41,239 nt of DNA, from positions 1 through 41,239 of the IMG/VR virus record IMGVR_UViG_3300021963_000253, one strand, 5' to 3'. The stretch comes from a virus. Positions 4,878 through 27,407 of this stretch are shown here, piece by piece; within the stretch, counting starts at the first letter, position 1; each line of letters begins with the position of its first letter. A program made the position numbers and the translations under genes. Below the pieces are notes generated by a model. It made no database searches and was not told the origin of the DNA. It worked only from the letters and a program-made list of their open reading frames with translations.

Positions 4878-5021
4878 ATGTTAACAAACATTATCGTATT
4901 TTTAGTTGGTGCTCATTTGGGTGCAAAATACCCACAAAAAGCAACACTAATCGTTGACACAGCTGTATCTTTTGCAAAAGCAGTATGGGCAAAAGTAGCA
5001 GGATTAGTGGCTAAAAAATAA
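4878..5021 (+). CDS. Holin-like 47-aa membrane peptide next to endolysin
   Basis: The ORF encodes a 47-residue peptide with one N-terminal hydrophobic helix (MLTNIIVFLVGAHLGAKYPQ) and a second amphipathic, alanine/valine/lysine-rich segment ending in VAKK. A very strong AAAGGAGA (4865-4872) precedes the ATG, and its TAA overlaps the ATG of the GH19 endolysin (TAATG). A small membrane peptide coupled to an endolysin lacking a signal peptide suggests a holin or pinholin, or a regulator of one. I cannot place it in a named holin family. Confidence 0.6.
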   Translation: MLTNIIVFLVGAHLGAKYPQKATLIVDTAVSFAKAVWAKVAGLVAKK

Positions 5022-5662
5022 TGGCATTCGAATTCGATTTTACTGAGCAAAAACTAGGCAAGATCCTCACGCGTAATAAGAACGTTCACGTGTGGTATGA
5101 AGCGATGGCTATACAGTTACCTCAATTTGAAGTAACTACTGCAAAACGCGTTGCCGCTTTTGTAGCTCAGTGTGCTCATGAATCTGCGGACTTCACGACT
5201 CTACAAGAAAACTTAAACTACTCTGCTGACGCATTGAACAAACTATTTGGTAAGTACTTTGCTGCAGCTGGTAGAGATGCTGCTCCATATCATCGTAAAC
5301 CTGAAATGATCGCTAATGTAATATATGCGAATCGTATGGGTAACGGAGATACTGCAAGCGGTGAAGGTTATAAGTTCAGAGGACGCGGTCCAATTCAACT
5401 AACAGGTAAGGCTAACTATCAAGCGTTTGCTACAGACTTCTTTGAAGATCCTGAAACCGTGATAAATGATCCTGACCTCGTGACAGATGATGTACCAACT
5501 TCCTTATATTCAGCTCTTTGGTTTTGGAATAAAAACAAAATCAATAGGTTTGCTGATACAGGTGACATCAAAGGAATGACTAAGGTTATCAATGGTGGAT
5601 ATATTGGTTTAGAAGACCGTATCAAACATTATAACCATGCAATCGAAGTCCTCGAAGCTTAA
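5021..5662 (+). CDS. GH19 chitinase-like endolysin
   Basis: Peptidoglycan-cleaving endolysin of glycoside hydrolase family 19 (213 aa). Evidence is the family motif CAHESADF with catalytic glutamate E54, the second acidic residue E63 in LQENLNYSADAL, and FRGRGPIQLTGKANY in the middle, which is characteristic of GH19 lysozymes/chitinases. The C-terminal VINGGYIGLEDR matches the NGG...R motif of the family. No signal peptide is present, so release through a holin is expected; the 47-aa membrane peptide immediately upstream, overlapping by one base, is the candidate. Confidence 0.9.
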   Translation: MAFEFDFTEQKLGKILTRNKNVHVWYEAMAIQLPQFEVTTAKRVAAFVAQCAHESADFTTLQENLNYSADALNKLFGKYFAAAGRDAAPYHRKPEMIANVIYANRMGNGDTASGEGYKFRGRGPIQLTGKANYQAFATDFFEDPETVINDPDLVTDDVPTSLYSALWFWNKNKINRFADTGDIKGMTKVINGGYIGLEDRIKHYNHAIEVLEA

Positions 5663-7711: not shown

Positions 7712-8398
7712 GTGACTACAAGTGCAAGTGAAAATATCCCTAATATATTTGGTGGACTACTTAATAATGTCCATATCAATACGATTGAGTCTGCATATAG
7801 GACACATGAGGTATTCTTAGATTCAGAGATCGAAGAGCCTAGTAAGTATAGAGAACTAATCTCAGTGCTTATTAATGCTAGTCCTAATGATAAGATCCAC
7901 TTATACATCAATTCAAATGGTGGCCACCTCGATACGGCTGGAGCCATCATCTCAGGTATCCTATCTTCACAAGCAGAGGTGACAGCATTCCTTATGGGTG
8001 CTACACACTCTGCAGCATCACTCATAGCTATGTATTGTCATGCTGTCCATGTGTATGATACAGCCTACATGATGATCCATACTGCGTCATTTGGCTCGTC
8101 AGGTAATACACCAACAGTCAAGGCGCACACAGATTTTACCATCAAGCAGTGTGAAAAGCTTATGCTTGATGCATACGAAGGGTTCTTGACAAAAACTGAG
8201 ATGGACAAGGTATTAAATGGTCTTGAACTATGGTTCAATGCAGAAGAGATCAAGCCTAGACTTAAGAAGCGGTTTGAAGCTGTGCAATTACAAGATAAGA
8301 AAGTCGCTGAGAAGGCGAACGAAATCGTTGAAACAAAGCCAAAGCCCGCTAAGAAGACTAAGATCAAAGTTAAAGTAGAAGATGGTGCTATCGATTAG
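7712..8398 (+). CDS. ClpP-like cytoplasmic protease
   Basis: A 228-aa protein of the ClpP/SppA fold. IHLYINSNGGHLDTAGAI (62-79) matches the ClpP substrate-strand and oxyanion region. MGATHSAASLIA places S100 at the ClpP nucleophile position, and MMIHTASFGSSG places H123 at the catalytic histidine with ClpP-like spacing. The C-terminal 40 residues are a Lys/Pro-rich tail absent from bacterial ClpP. It starts at GTG 7712 with AAAGGT 7 nt upstream, two bases after the SleB gene. Unlike the 3499 product it has no signal peptide. Target unknown; phage scaffold or host protein turnover are possibilities. Confidence 0.82.
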   Translation: MTTSASENIPNIFGGLLNNVHINTIESAYRTHEVFLDSEIEEPSKYRELISVLINASPNDKIHLYINSNGGHLDTAGAIISGILSSQAEVTAFLMGATHSAASLIAMYCHAVHVYDTAYMMIHTASFGSSGNTPTVKAHTDFTIKQCEKLMLDAYEGFLTKTEMDKVLNGLELWFNAEEIKPRLKKRFEAVQLQDKKVAEKANEIVETKPKPAKKTKIKVKVEDGAID

Positions 8399-17697: not shown

Positions 17698-18191
17698 TGT
17701 ACTTCGAAAACTTCCCTACATTTTTGTATGATTTTAAGATCAATGGTAAGATTGAATATAAGTTAGTTAAAGATATCTCGCAAAACGTTCGCATTCGTAA
17801 AGAGATATTATCTAGCGTAACTTTATATGATGAGTATGATATACGAGACGGTGAAACACCAGAGATCATATCAGAAAAAGTATATGGTACTTCTTTGTAT
17901 CATTGGGTAGTCATGTTGTGTAATGAGAAGTATAACTATATAGATGATTTTCCATTACCAAGTTATGAACTAGAAAAACATATAACCAATAAGTATGGAG
18001 TTGGTAATGAGTATGACATTCATCATTATGTAAATGCAAATGGATTCATAGTAGATTCTAGTCAAGCAGGAGCTACATCAGTGTCCAATTATGATTATGA
18101 AATATCTGTAAATGAATCAAAGCGTAGGATCAAACTAATCTCTCCATCATTACTAAATACTATCCTCAAAAACTTTAAAGATATTATATAA
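17697..18191 (+). CDS. 53: Baseplate wedge subunit gp53
   Basis: Wedge protein that binds completed wedges to the hub. Recognised from MYFENFPTFLYDF, VRIRKEILSSVTLYDEYDIRDGETPEIISEKVYGTSLYHWVVMLCNE; this contains a LysM-like segment (DGETPEIISEKVYG) as known for gp53. 164 aa against 196 in T4. Overlaps both neighbours by one base. Confidence 0.92.
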   Translation: MYFENFPTFLYDFKINGKIEYKLVKDISQNVRIRKEILSSVTLYDEYDIRDGETPEIISEKVYGTSLYHWVVMLCNEKYNYIDDFPLPSYELEKHITNKYGVGNEYDIHHYVNANGFIVDSSQAGATSVSNYDYEISVNESKRRIKLISPSLLNTILKNFKDII

Positions 18192-19483
18192 TGCCAGCTT
18201 ATAATGAAGCCATACGTTTCGCAGGAGACGTCTCGTTCGATGAAATTAGTATCATATCATCAAATGGATTTGGTCAAGATGTAACCAATCAAGTAGTAGC
18301 TCTCGAACTATATGAAGATCTATGGTCTCCATTCATGTCAGGAGTCTTAGCATTAAAAGATTCATTGGACCTTACAAACTTATTTCCTTTTGTGGGTGAA
18401 GAGTTTGTTAACATCAAGATACACACCCCATCGTTTGAAGGCAAAGACAAAACGATAAATGATCAATTCTATATCTATAAGATGACAAATAGAATAGCCA
18501 AGGGTGATAGAAATGCTATATACGAATTACATTTCATATCGCGAGAAGCTATCGTAGACCTTAATAAAGCCACAAGTAAAGCTTATACTGGAAAGTGCTC
18601 AGACATAGCAAGAGCTATTATTACTGGCACTGACGGATTAGAATCTAAGAAGGCTACTATCATTGAAGAAACACCTAATGGCGTTAAGTTTGTAGCAAAT
18701 TATTGGCCACCAGTAAAGAGTCTTAATTATACAGCAGAGACTGCTTCAAATAGAGATGGATCTGCTAACTATCTATTCTTTGAAAATAGATTAGGTCTTA
18801 ATTTTGTATCATTAGACTACTTATACAAAGGTGATCTAGTACAAGAATTTGTACAAGATAATTACATGAGAGATTTTACTGCAGATGGTAGAACATACAG
18901 AAATGTTGAGAAAGAATACCAACGAATCATAGATATAACCATACCTGAAGTATTTGATTATATGGATAAAGTTAGGTCTGGCATGTATGCAAATAAGATG
19001 ACAAACTACGACTTAGTCACTAAGAAGTACGTAGTTAAGACGTTTGATATGCTAGAGGACTTTGCTAAAAACTCCCATTTAAATGAATTTGCATCTGCAT
19101 CAAATAAGTCAATAAGAAGATTTAATGCTATGGGATTTATTTATCCTAAGTACCATGCAAATTTTAATAATTTTGGTGATGTCACCAATTCTAAGACTAT
19201 TCAAAAACGCATGTCGCAATTAAGACAAGCAGAAGCAACTAAGATACAGATAGTAGTTCCTGGTCGTACAGACTATACTGTTGGGCAAAAGGTACGGGTC
19301 AAACTTAATAAGTTTAACCCTATAGAAGGCACAAATTCACCAGAAGATACGGTAGATAATATGTTTTCAGGTAATTACTTAATATCTGGTATCAATCATT
19401 TTATTAATAGAGAGAAGCATCAGTGTCATATGGAATTAATGAAGGATTCATTTATAGTAGATTTAGATAAAGGTGGCAAGTAA
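18191..19483 (+). CDS. 27: Baseplate central hub protein gp27-like
   Basis: Forms the trimeric hub ring that holds the gp5 spike. Evidence is the order of genes and the motifs NQVVALELYEDLWSPFMSGVLALKDS, FPFVGEEFVNIKI, FYIYKMTNRIAKGDRNAIYELHFIS and the late VPGRTDYTVGQKVRVKLNKF of the second beta-barrel. 430 aa against 391 in T4. The product of the next full-length gene, gp5, is its expected partner, but a short NUMOD3 gene lies between them. Confidence 0.85.
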   Translation: MPAYNEAIRFAGDVSFDEISIISSNGFGQDVTNQVVALELYEDLWSPFMSGVLALKDSLDLTNLFPFVGEEFVNIKIHTPSFEGKDKTINDQFYIYKMTNRIAKGDRNAIYELHFISREAIVDLNKATSKAYTGKCSDIARAIITGTDGLESKKATIIEETPNGVKFVANYWPPVKSLNYTAETASNRDGSANYLFFENRLGLNFVSLDYLYKGDLVQEFVQDNYMRDFTADGRTYRNVEKEYQRIIDITIPEVFDYMDKVRSGMYANKMTNYDLVTKKYVVKTFDMLEDFAKNSHLNEFASASNKSIRRFNAMGFIYPKYHANFNNFGDVTNSKTIQKRMSQLRQAEATKIQIVVPGRTDYTVGQKVRVKLNKFNPIEGTNSPEDTVDNMFSGNYLISGINHFINREKHQCHMELMKDSFIVDLDKGGK

Positions 19484-19965
19484 TGCATAATTTAGAATTT
19501 AAAGAAATATTTGGGTCATTAAAAACATTTATTTTAGATGAGTCTGAATTAGAGCCATTAGAAAAAACTAATCAAAGTGGAGTATTTAATTCATTTTATG
19601 GAAAAAAACATACAGAAGAAACTAAGAAAAAGTGGTCTATTAAAAGAAAAGGTACAATAATCATATATGATAAATCAGGAAAAAACAATCCTAATTATGG
19701 AAAATATGGAAAAGATAGTCCTAATTACGGTAAAAAACGAAGTGTTGAATTTAAATTAGCACAATCTAAACAGTTTAGTGGTAAAAATAATCCTATGTTT
19801 GGTATAGAAAGAGAAAAACATCCTAGTTCAAAATTTACAGATATTGAACTAAAACAAATTTATGAATTATTTAAAAATGGCATGACTAGAACAGAAATAT
19901 TTAATTTTTATAATGGAAAATATTCATCTAGCACTATAAAAAGGGCTATAAGAAATCATGACTAA
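19483..19965 (+). CDS. NUMOD3-type homing-endonuclease DNA-binding protein lacking a nuclease domain
   Basis: A 160-aa, AT-rich, lysine/asparagine-rich gene between two hub genes. It contains repeated NUMOD3-like units: NSFYGKKHTEETKKKW (36-51), GKNNPNYGKYGKDSPNYGKK (66-85) and SGKNNPMFGIEREKHPSSKF (99-118). A helix-turn-helix-like C-terminus follows (TDIELKQIYELFKNGMTRTE, then SSSTIKRAI). In phages these modules form the DNA-binding tail of GIY-YIG or HNH homing endonucleases, but no catalytic domain precedes them; the 33 N-terminal residues carry no GIY, YIG or HNH motif. Overlaps gene 27 by one base and gene 5 by eight. Confidence 0.8.
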   Translation: MHNLEFKEIFGSLKTFILDESELEPLEKTNQSGVFNSFYGKKHTEETKKKWSIKRKGTIIIYDKSGKNNPNYGKYGKDSPNYGKKRSVEFKLAQSKQFSGKNNPMFGIEREKHPSSKFTDIELKQIYELFKNGMTRTEIFNFYNGKYSSSTIKRAIRNHD

Positions 19966-22378
19966 ATTATACACAGGTTGTTGTGAGAATAGACAAGATC
20001 CATTAAAACTTGGTAGATGCCAGGTTCGTGTGGTAGGTCTACACAATAGTGATAAGACTCAGTTAAAGACCGAGGACTTACCATGGGCATATCCTATGCA
20101 GCCACTTACCTCTGCTGGAATTTCAGGTATAGGTCATACTCCGTTAGGTCCAGTTGAAGGTTCATGGGTCGTTGTCATGTTCAGAGACGATGATGAACAA
20201 CAGCCTATCATCTTAGGTACAATCGGCGGTATACCACAAGCACAAGGTACCATAGATCAAGATAATGATCAGCTGATCCTCAAAGAAGATGGTATGCTCG
20301 CGGGTTCAGATGGTCAAACTACTACAGATGCTAATGGTGATACTACAACTAATACTTCCTCAACACCAGCAGAAGAAGATGTTGGGTTAAATCTTGCTAG
20401 TAAATATACCCCATCTTCAGATGCTATAAACTTAATCAAACAATATGAAGGATTAAGATTAAATGCATATCAAGACTCTGTTGGTATATGGACTATAGGA
20501 TATGGTACTACAACTATTAATGGGGCTGCAGTATATGAAGGCCAAACTATTACTCAGGCACAAGCTGATGAGTATTTGTTAACTCATATACAAAATAATG
20601 TATCTCCTATAATAAACACAAAAGTCAAAGCTCCCATCACACAATCGATGTATGATGCATTATGTTGTTTTACATATAACCTAGGTTCTGGTAATTTAAG
20701 TAAGTCTACACTATTAAAAGAACTAAACACTACAAAGTATCTAGACACCGCAACATCATTCTTAGACTATAATAAAGCCGGTGGAGTAGTATTAGCTGGA
20801 CTTACTAAACGTAGGTCTGCAGAAAAAGATCTATTCTTAAAAGATGGTATACCTAGTATTTCAGGAGATCTAACTCCAGTACAAGGAGTCAATGCTCCTG
20901 TTGATTCGTCTAATACTAGTACAGGACTTAATAACGGTGGTGCTGCTGTAGTACTAGGATTTAAAGATCCTAAAGGTAAGTATCCATTATATCTAAATGA
21001 ACCAGACACAAACAAGTTAGCTAGACACGAAGACATCAAGAAGACCATAGTCTATAAGAAAGAATTAGCAAGAGAGAAAGCTGTGTTAACTGCAGGTGGT
21101 AAAACATGGGACCAAGCACACATACCTTACAACGCTTCATATCCATATAATCATGTATTCATGACAGAGTCTGGTCATATCATGGAATTTGATGATACAC
21201 AATACTCTGAACGGGTGCACATATATCATAAGTCTGGTACATTCACTGAAATTGATGCTAACGGTACTCAAGTAAACAGAATAGTTGGAGATAACTATGA
21301 GATACTTGAAAGAAACGGTCATGTATACATCAAAGGTACTATGGACGTCACTATAGACGGTGACCATAATGTTAAAGTTAATAATGCTATGAACCTTGAA
21401 GTAGTTGGTAATGTTAACATGAAAGTTACTGGAAACATGAATGTTGATGTAGCAGGCACATACAACTTAAAAGCTTCAGGTATTAACTTAGAAACACATA
21501 CTGGTCCAATGAATATAAAATCGGCCAATAGTGTTAATGTACAATCTTCTGCCGCACAAAGCTTTAAAGCTGGAGCGACATTTAATGTTGATGCTGTGCG
21601 CGTAGACATGAATAGTGGAACTGCTGGAGATGCATCTGGTTCTGGATTAGATACACTTTCTGTGGCTACTCCAGAATTGCCAGAGTTTACAGACTTAGTA
21701 GTGATAACGCGTGGAGCAGAGGCCGCTGCACATTATGAGACTCCAGAAGAAGGTGATGCTACTGCTTATACTGCTAAACAAATTAGTGATGGTACATTAA
21801 GAGCTGACGAGAAAGATTTTGGTACAGCACAAGGATCAGCGACAGCAAGTCCTAATAACGTAATACCATTACCACAAAGCTGTAACTTAATTAATGGTAT
21901 GAATAAATTTACTGCAGACTTACAGCTATCAACACACTTTACTCTTGGCGCATTGACTAAGAACGGCACACGTATGCCAGTTAATCAACAAGGTTTAACT
22001 GCACAAGAGATCGTGTGTAACCTTAAAGGTCTTGCTGAGAATTGTTTAGAGCCTATTATCGGATTATATCCAAGTATGATCATTACTTCAGGATTTAGAA
22101 GACCTAACGATGTGGCTGCATCTAGCAAGACATCACAACATTACCTAGGTCAAGCTGCAGACATTGTAATCCCAGGATTTAGCAGACAGAAACATTATGA
22201 TGCAATCCAAACTATACAACAATTAATACCGTATGATCAGTTAATATTAGAATATTCTGGAGCTAATACTGTATGGATCCATGTGTCATTTAAGTATACA
22301 GCTAATAGACAGATGGCGTTTACGATGAGAGATCATAGTAAAGTTGGTGGTACCGGGCAGTTTACGCTGATAGCATAA
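19958..22378 (+). CDS. 5: Baseplate spike gp5 with lysozyme and C-terminal M15 peptidase domains
   Basis: Central spike that pierces the outer membrane and cuts peptidoglycan. Order of domains in 806 aa (T4: 575): OB-fold 1-95 (LGRCQVRVVGLHN, PVEGSWVVVMFRDDDEQQPIILG); GH24 lysozyme ~145-300 with E164, D173 and T179, the exact E-9-D-6-T spacing of T4 lysozyme; linker; beta-helix spike ~390-540 (VDIT/VKVNN/MNLEVVG-type repeats); and a C-terminal domain ~650-806 with SQHYLGQAADI (H728, D735) and WIHVSF (H775), preceded by SGFRRP: a Peptidase_M15_3-like zinc peptidase. T4 gp5 has no such peptidase. Confidence 0.92.
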   Translation: MTKLYTGCCENRQDPLKLGRCQVRVVGLHNSDKTQLKTEDLPWAYPMQPLTSAGISGIGHTPLGPVEGSWVVVMFRDDDEQQPIILGTIGGIPQAQGTIDQDNDQLILKEDGMLAGSDGQTTTDANGDTTTNTSSTPAEEDVGLNLASKYTPSSDAINLIKQYEGLRLNAYQDSVGIWTIGYGTTTINGAAVYEGQTITQAQADEYLLTHIQNNVSPIINTKVKAPITQSMYDALCCFTYNLGSGNLSKSTLLKELNTTKYLDTATSFLDYNKAGGVVLAGLTKRRSAEKDLFLKDGIPSISGDLTPVQGVNAPVDSSNTSTGLNNGGAAVVLGFKDPKGKYPLYLNEPDTNKLARHEDIKKTIVYKKELAREKAVLTAGGKTWDQAHIPYNASYPYNHVFMTESGHIMEFDDTQYSERVHIYHKSGTFTEIDANGTQVNRIVGDNYEILERNGHVYIKGTMDVTIDGDHNVKVNNAMNLEVVGNVNMKVTGNMNVDVAGTYNLKASGINLETHTGPMNIKSANSVNVQSSAAQSFKAGATFNVDAVRVDMNSGTAGDASGSGLDTLSVATPELPEFTDLVVITRGAEAAAHYETPEEGDATAYTAKQISDGTLRADEKDFGTAQGSATASPNNVIPLPQSCNLINGMNKFTADLQLSTHFTLGALTKNGTRMPVNQQGLTAQEIVCNLKGLAENCLEPIIGLYPSMIITSGFRRPNDVAASSKTSQHYLGQAADIVIPGFSRQKHYDAIQTIQQLIPYDQLILEYSGANTVWIHVSFKYTANRQMAFTMRDHSKVGGTGQFTLIA

Positions 22379-26916: not shown

Positions 26917-27123
26917 ATGGCAAGAAAATGGGCAGTACATAATCAAAAAACAGGATTACAAGAAGAGCTTGATTCATTCGAAGCAATCAAGACTCGTAGG
27001 TTAGAGATCATAGAAGAATCTCATCTATTTGATATAACGGTTTTAGTACAAAACGAAGATGGAACTTGGACTCAAACATTAGCTGACGCTAATGGAGATC
27101 CAATTATTCCTACAATTGAATAA
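26917..27123 (+). CDS. Small protein of unknown function (68 aa)
   Basis: A soluble, acidic protein (MARKWAVHNQKTGLQEELDS...) with a beta hairpin-like end (LVQNEDGTWTQTLADANGDP). TAGGAG upstream gives a good start, and the stop overlaps the PAAR gene (TAATG). No family recognised; perhaps a small fibre or tip accessory. Confidence 0.65.
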   Translation: MARKWAVHNQKTGLQEELDSFEAIKTRRLEIIEESHLFDITVLVQNEDGTWTQTLADANGDPIIPTIE

Positions 27124-27407
27124 TGCCAGCAGCTACTAGATTAGGAGATGTTTGTACAGGGCATGGATGCTTTCCTCCAAGAGTTAATGACGAAGCATCC
27201 GATAATGTATTCATCAATGGTATAGGTGCTCATAGAGAAGGCGACCATTGGGTAACTCATTGTTGTGGACCCTCATGTCATGATGGAGTAGCCGCAGAAG
27301 GATCTTCAACAGTATTCATCAATGGTAAAGCAGCTGTTAGGATAGGTGATATGATTTCATGTGGATCAGCCTCAGCTCAAGGCTCTCCAAGTGTATTCTT
27401 TGGATAA
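27123..27407 (+). CDS. PAAR-repeat spike-tip protein (gp5.4-like)
   Basis: A 94-aa PAAR protein that sharpens the gp5 spike tip. Motifs: PAATRLGDVCTGHGCFPPR at the start, repeated VFING...A.R.GD units (28-41 and 64-76), and conserved His/Cys (C11, H14, C16, H42, H46, C47/C48, C52, H53, C80) fit to bind the tip metal. T4 uses gp5.4 for this role. Confidence 0.92.
   Translation: MPAATRLGDVCTGHGCFPPRVNDEASDNVFINGIGAHREGDHWVTHCCGPSCHDGVAAEGSSTVFINGKAAVRIGDMISCGSASAQGSPSVFFG

Follow-up and report, generated by a model that had tools for sequence, protein, structure and literature searches.

The tail lysozyme of phage T4 is the textbook route by which a contractile phage opens the cell wall. The lysozyme of T4 gp5 has the catalytic triad E184/D193/T199, gp5 is cleaved between the lysozyme and the helix, and the lysozymes are held against the helix until its dissociation (PMC3004832). 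We examined a gp5-type gene in IMG/VR virus record IMGVR_UViG_3300021963_000253, positions 1 to 41,239 (the window, 41,239 nucleotides). Judged by its sequence, the open reading frame (ORF) at 19958-22378 is a T4 gp5-type spike with a GH24 lysozyme in mid-chain and an M15-fold domain at the tip end. This spike is likely to carry two peptidoglycan hydrolases that serve entry. The open-access literature yielded no description of a lysozyme and an M15 domain on a single phage spike.

The ORF encodes 806 amino acids in one open frame without a stop. It matched phrog_430 ('baseplate hub subunit and tail lysozyme') at E 2e-96 and T4 gp5 in the PDB at E 6e-40. It lies on the + strand, as do all domains and codons given below. 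The N-terminal OB domain (residues 1-97; 19958-20248) was recognized by Gp5_OB (PF06714) at E 2.3e-24, with a match spanning residues 30-96 that scored 86.7 bits against a Pfam cut-off of 25. The GH24 lysozyme domain (residues 161-289; 20438-20824) matched Phage_lysozyme (PF00959) at E 1.6e-39 and 135.6 bits, and at 1.3e-42 in a six-frame search. The neck and triple-stranded beta-helix occupy about residues 386-556 (21113-21625). Here the Pfam match to Gp5_trimer_C (residues 409-503) fell below the cut-off (20.9 vs 30.9), and the region was placed by the T4 gp5 and phiKZ/PVC chimera spike structures; in the PDB search residues 390-469 and 427-512 aligned with T4 gp5 (1pdl), and residues 444-550 with 6p20 at E 1.7e-5. 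A flexible linker, some 85 residues long (about 557-640; 21626-21877), was delimited by AlphaFold2 and alignment, with residues 561-599 nearly all below 50 in the predicted local distance difference test (pLDDT). From about residue 641 to its end at 806 the chain forms a predicted zinc peptidase domain of M15 fold (21878-22375). The mean pLDDT of the full-length AlphaFold2 monomer model was 68.5. An assembly fusion or sequencing artefact was ruled out, as dozens of independent contigs share this architecture.

The lysozyme residues E164 (20447-20449), D173 (20474-20476) and T179 (20492-20494) are equivalent to E184, D193 and T199 of T4 gp5 (PMC3004832), and the Glu-Asp-Thr spacing (9, then 6) equals that of T4. 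A preliminary description of the window, made from the sequence alone, had placed both the ORF and this triad correctly. Simple pairwise estimates of the ratio of nonsynonymous to synonymous substitution (dN/dS) between the window and two relatives, L002 and L003, gave 0.05 and 0.14 in GH24, and 0.06 and 0.08 in M15. In the window's lineage purifying selection acts on both domains.

The same description had recognized an M15-type zinc site, H728/D735/H775, beyond the helix, and this too was borne out. The window contains the M15 zinc-site pattern SxHxxGxAxD ... WxH, and residues 654-789 match the PHROG endolysin family phrog_894 at E 2e-18. An AlphaFold2 model of residues 561-806, built with 32 sequences, was confident (pLDDT >= 90 at 148/246 residues) and has the M15 fold. 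Its top match in VIA-align was 1lbu, the Streptomyces albus G Zn DD-peptidase (Z 11.1, 131 residues, root-mean-square deviation 2.8), followed by hedgehog proteins near Z 6 and then by ChiX, Ply500, LysB4 and VanY/LdcB types. Foldseek likewise returned 1lbu first, at E 3e-3 only. A profile search of the PDB put hedgehog first, with H728, D735, E765 and H775 pairing with the His, Asp, Glu and His of the hedgehog zinc site; for E765 the partner is the zinc-site Glu of Sonic hedgehog. Among viral models in BFVD the top matches were further OB proteins of the gp5 type and uncultured-phage proteins named 'Peptidase M15A, C-terminal', so such proteins are already in databases at the level of annotation.

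The predicted zinc ligands H728 (22139-22141) and D735 (22160-22162) are invariant in 54/54 aligned relatives, a set of full-length gp5 proteins fetched through their M15 domains. The third predicted ligand, H775 (22280-22282), and E765 (22250-22252), the proposed general base, are invariant in the 53/53 relatives that are not cut short there. All four residues are also invariant in a joint alignment of gp5-borne and PAAR-borne copies. E765, as invariant as the ligands, had been missed earlier. In the full-length model E765 and H775 lie on the paired strands of one hairpin (761-767 and 771-777), so a role of E765 as general base is a reasonable reading. A chance motif was ruled out by conservation, fold and homologues. 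As modeled, the C-terminal domain has an M15 fold with a complete predicted zinc site and an invariant glutamate, from which we infer peptidase activity.

Part of the M15 constancy was built into the first sets, since their members were retrieved through similarity to M15 and the zinc ligands featured in some search patterns; the sets comprised 48 loci from a scan of viral contigs with the C-terminus and the best 80 of 392 matches in a profile scan. Control sets were selected by the OB domain or by the neck. Each is limited to the window's best 80 matches, with overlap between the two, so they describe the window's wider kin and not all T4-like phages. Rows ending at a contig end were left out of loss counts. 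In both sets the constancy of M15 persisted. The full H-D-E-H site was present in 33/34 distinct OB-selected proteins with a complete C-terminus, of which 14/34 have an intact GH24 domain and 5/34 a deleted catalytic lobe. In the 34th, L340 (4300-7110), a TIGR02594/CHAP-like C-terminus replaces M15, and GH19 is found at the position of the lysozyme. In the neck-selected set the M15 domain was found in 51/52 and the full site in 48/52; the exceptions were K765 in L386 and L390, replacement of the domain after the Asp in L377, and L401, which is without M15. The loci listed in a genome-contig scan were distant (<= 41% identity) and mostly came from Prevotella/Bacteroidales records.

Several observations weigh against a second, peptide-cutting enzyme on this spike and against its general retention. 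The window's own match to Peptidase_M15_3 (PF08291; residues 702-747) scored 17.3 bits against a cut-off of 23.2. VanX-type M15 enzymes (M15B/C; VanX/VanY, Ply500) have an acidic base at -3 relative to their third ligand ([DE]xxH). The window has V at that position, 772, and its invariant acid, E765, is on the preceding strand; the M15B/C subfamily was therefore not assigned. The near-identical L386 and L390 keep H, D and H and have Lys at 765. In L377 (3489-6446) the M15 domain ends after the Asp ligand and about 180 unrelated residues follow. Finally, T4 is without the M15 domain, as are, judged by gp5 length, the isolates HTVC008M and D479. Constancy of M15 is thus specific to the window's group, many T4-like phages being without it. 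As for the weak Pfam score, close homologues exceed the cut-off (L036, 25.5; L041, 25.2; L389, 39.7), and the M15 assignment in the window is made on these homologues together with phrog_894, the 1lbu match and the invariance of the H/D/E/H residues. In L386/L390 the tip domain may be naturally inactive. The join in L377 could be a product of recombination, a frameshift or an assembly join.

Without being a peptidase, the C-terminal domain could keep the M15/hedgehog fold and zinc and serve a structural or binding purpose, such as docking of the tip or attachment to the wall or a receptor. Hedgehog proteins have the common fold and zinc site, yet signal instead of digesting, and they lead the PDB profile search; the missing VanX-type acid at -3 from H775 and the retention of the domain in the L386/L390 lineage despite K765 would also fit such a role. 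Yet the structural fit to an active DD-peptidase is far above that to hedgehog (Z 11.1 vs about 6), E765 is elsewhere invariant along with the three ligands, and M15 relatives are annotated as endolysins. The swap in L340 to an unrelated domain fits an enzymatic role and not docking. A mere binding role is rather unlikely on this evidence, and a peptidase remains our preferred interpretation of the domain.

The lysozyme, by contrast with the near-constant peptidase, is variable across the relatives, a pattern that had not been noticed earlier. On a tree built without the columns of the lysozyme slot, the catalytic lobe is deleted in 12/53 proteins, and its loss amounts to at least three changes, all three forced by well-supported branches. 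Pfam still sees a residual GH24 domain in these proteins, from profile positions 27-49 onward (E 1e-13 to 4e-6), and the segment bearing the Glu, Asp and Thr is gone. Simple pairwise dN/dS estimates in lobe-deleted proteins were 0.07-0.47 for the GH24 remnant and 0.04-0.20 for M15. The remnants (L006, L011, L024, L036, L041, L044 and kin) are open and partly conserved between OB and helix, and look as if they were still useful as a spacer or inactive domain. The '-DT' 'GH24broken' calls for L389, L393, L396 and L397 are probable alignment artefacts: L389 and L393, when read out, have the HEGL glutamate with an insertion after it, and the four were therefore not scored as losses. GH24 status was left unclear in L033 and L381 (A for T179) and in L122 (degenerate).

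In other relatives the slot has a different occupant. It is Phage_lysozyme2 in Cr30, GH19 in BUCT-ZZ01, L223, L267, L316, L347, L398 and L340, and a VanY-type or Peptidase_M15_2-type domain in Melnitz and L219; pf16 has no recognised enzyme there. In L230 and L246 it is filled by a muramidase-type domain resembling VgrG3, borne by a split OB protein. This domain, PF21277 of the type VI secretion system (T6SS), was matched at E 3e-48 in L230 (locus 1191-2333) and at E 3e-53 in L246 (locus 1035-2114), and a possible exchange between phage and T6SS arsenals comes to mind. Gp5 is encoded as two genes, OB plus enzyme and helix plus M15, in L214-L222, L230, L235, L246, L247, L249 and L053, and the split falls near the site of the post-translational protease cut in T4 gp5.

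The sequence comparison suggests that in the window's phage group the tip peptidase is near-constant and the lysozyme slot an interchangeable accessory, one that is still intact in the window. M15 on gp5 is not peculiar to the window phage. It is common among the relatives, and the combination of lysozyme and M15 is not unique but part of a wide pattern. The reversal of roles, with a constant tip peptidase and a disposable lysozyme, is more interesting than the double enzyme itself. A second, chemically different enzyme is predicted at the tip; nearly all relatives sampled by the N-terminus keep it, and it is the lysozyme that is exchanged or broken. Tentatively, and with somewhat more doubt than conviction, we propose that opening of the wall at entry depends in this large group on the tip peptidase as the essential enzyme and not on the 'tail lysozyme', the lysozyme slot being swappable and lobe-deleted in several lineages and the M15 module moving between gp5 and PAAR. 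Which cut admits the tube can be compared in cultured phages, those with both enzyme kinds (Cr30, BUCT-ZZ01) against one with the peptidase only (pf16).

The place of the peptidase at the end of the helix had suggested an unusual arrangement of the PAAR tip. No such rearrangement is needed. The window encodes a normal, unfused PAAR tip protein of 94 amino acids (27123-27407, +; PF05488, E 9.1e-14), as do many relatives with gp5-M15, and the first 40 residues after the helix, which are predicted to be disordered, can act as a tether. PAAR-M15 fusions and type VI parallels point the same way. PAAR carries the M15 module as a fusion in Pseudomonas phages Milchi, PA5oct and vB_PpuM-Peetri, in Vibrio phage 1.244.A and in contig L204. 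Since the same module is found on gp5 and on PAAR, it belongs to the tip region and rides either partner, and a peptidase beside the tip is an ordinary, mobile arrangement. Within the predicted-disordered linker YETPEEGD (residues 593-600; 21734-21757), followed by ...Y..KQI..G, is strongly conserved and forms a possible docking motif. A third kind of carrier was seen in L205 and L207-L211, where M15 is on proteins of about 380-450 amino acids without an OB, helix or PAAR match.

A linker of this kind would be easy to cut, and the processing of T4 gp5 itself between lysozyme and helix (PMC3004832), described for T4 alone, gives a precedent. The peptidase might accordingly be cut off or used in assembly, in self-processing or maturation of virion proteins, leaving the infecting spike with the lysozyme only. 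Against this, the known T4 cut precedes the helix, M15 relatives act on peptidoglycan peptides, and in other phages M15 is on PAAR, the virion's extreme tip. The PAAR-M15 protein of PA5oct is annotated 'ESI-MS/MS' (electrospray ionization tandem mass spectrometry), in a record that does not state the measured sample. We consider removal or use in assembly improbable and favor a peptidase that stays on the infecting spike.

The preliminary description had also proposed that one spike cuts both glycan and peptide links at entry. This is plausible given the GH24 domain, the M15 site and purifying selection; the activity itself we infer. The three M15 domains would hang on tethers beside the PAAR-capped tip. 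Contraction would push the tip through the outer membrane and bring the tip peptidases first into the periplasm, where they would cut stem peptides or cross-links (DD, LD and L-Ala-D-Glu specificities are not distinguishable by sequence). The three lysozymes further back would cut glycan strands once off the helix, as in T4, and the tube would then pass.

Homologues of the M15 domain that stand alone in other phages bear endolysin annotations, and gp5 might on that account double as the exit enzyme in lysis. In the window the M15 domain forms part of a trimeric component of the tail, and a separate endolysin of GH19/chitinase-like type, the likely lysis enzyme, is encoded at 5021-5662 (+; phrog_181 endolysin, E 1e-67), so that lysis would have no need of gp5. 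A part in exit is highly improbable. The separate endolysin and the tail location make it most likely that gp5, with its two hydrolases, acts at entry.

By sequence the window phage is T4-like, as are its nearest isolates. The gene upstream of gp5 at 18191-19483 (+) encodes a hub/tail protein (phrog_350 tail protein, E 1e-79) in the place of T4 gp27, an identity suggested by its position. The nearest isolates by gp6 are the Kyanoviridae-type Pelagibacter phages Mosig and HTVC008M and Methylophilales phage Melnitz (41-42%), by gp32 HTVC008M (51%) and by the gp5 OB domain BUCT-ZZ01 (55%). An ORF directly upstream of gp5 (19483-19965), overlapping its start by 8 bases, has a NUMOD3/homing-endonuclease match (PF07460, E 1e-12). 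Two ORFs for collagen-like tail fibres (PF01391; 23924-25823) lie between gp5 and the PAAR gene, and a ClpP-like/head-maturation-protease-like ORF is found at 7712-8398 (phrog_1827).

The window gp5 resembles several described systems and differs from each. It shares with T4 gp5 (PDB 1k28, 1pdl) the OB domain, the GH24 E-D-T triad, the neck and the beta-helix in the same order, and in both phages the PAAR and hub proteins are separate; T4 gp5 ends at the helix, whereas in the window gp5 the M15-fold domain follows it after a linker. As in the window, M15 is found on the gp5 helix of Caulobacter phage Cr30, Synechococcus phage BUCT-ZZ01, Pseudomonas phage pf16 and Methylophilales phage Melnitz. 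None of the four pairs GH24 with M15, and the VanY-type M15 of Melnitz sits on a distinct OB protein. The M15 domains of the PAAR-M15 proteins of Milchi, PA5oct, Peetri and 1.244.A are 36-42% identical, have the identical invariant residues and lie at the spike tip; their carrier is PAAR instead of gp5. Jumbo-phage PAAR proteins have been said to stand alone without effector domains (PMC7824862), a statement to which the PAAR-M15 of PA5oct (286,783 bp) is an exception. The 'evolved' delivery logic of type VI systems, an effector on VgrG or PAAR, is thus also found in phages, contrary to PMC7824862.

The S. albus G zinc DD-peptidase (1lbu, M15A) is the best structural match but only 14% identical, and it is a free enzyme with no spike. 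Among T6SS proteins, VgrG2b of P. aeruginosa delivers a C-terminal zinc metallopeptidase to the periplasm and has homologues on PAAR proteins (PMC6899460); unlike the window domain it is an HEXXH metallopeptidase of another family and an antibacterial toxin with an immunity protein (PMC6899460). M15 effectors are listed in Neisseria T6SS loci (PMC10210955). VgrG joins the gp27 and gp5 parts in one chain, whereas the hub/tail protein of the window is a separate ORF in a phage tail cluster, so the window gp5 is not a VgrG-type fusion. By analogy, it probably works like an evolved VgrG but is not one.

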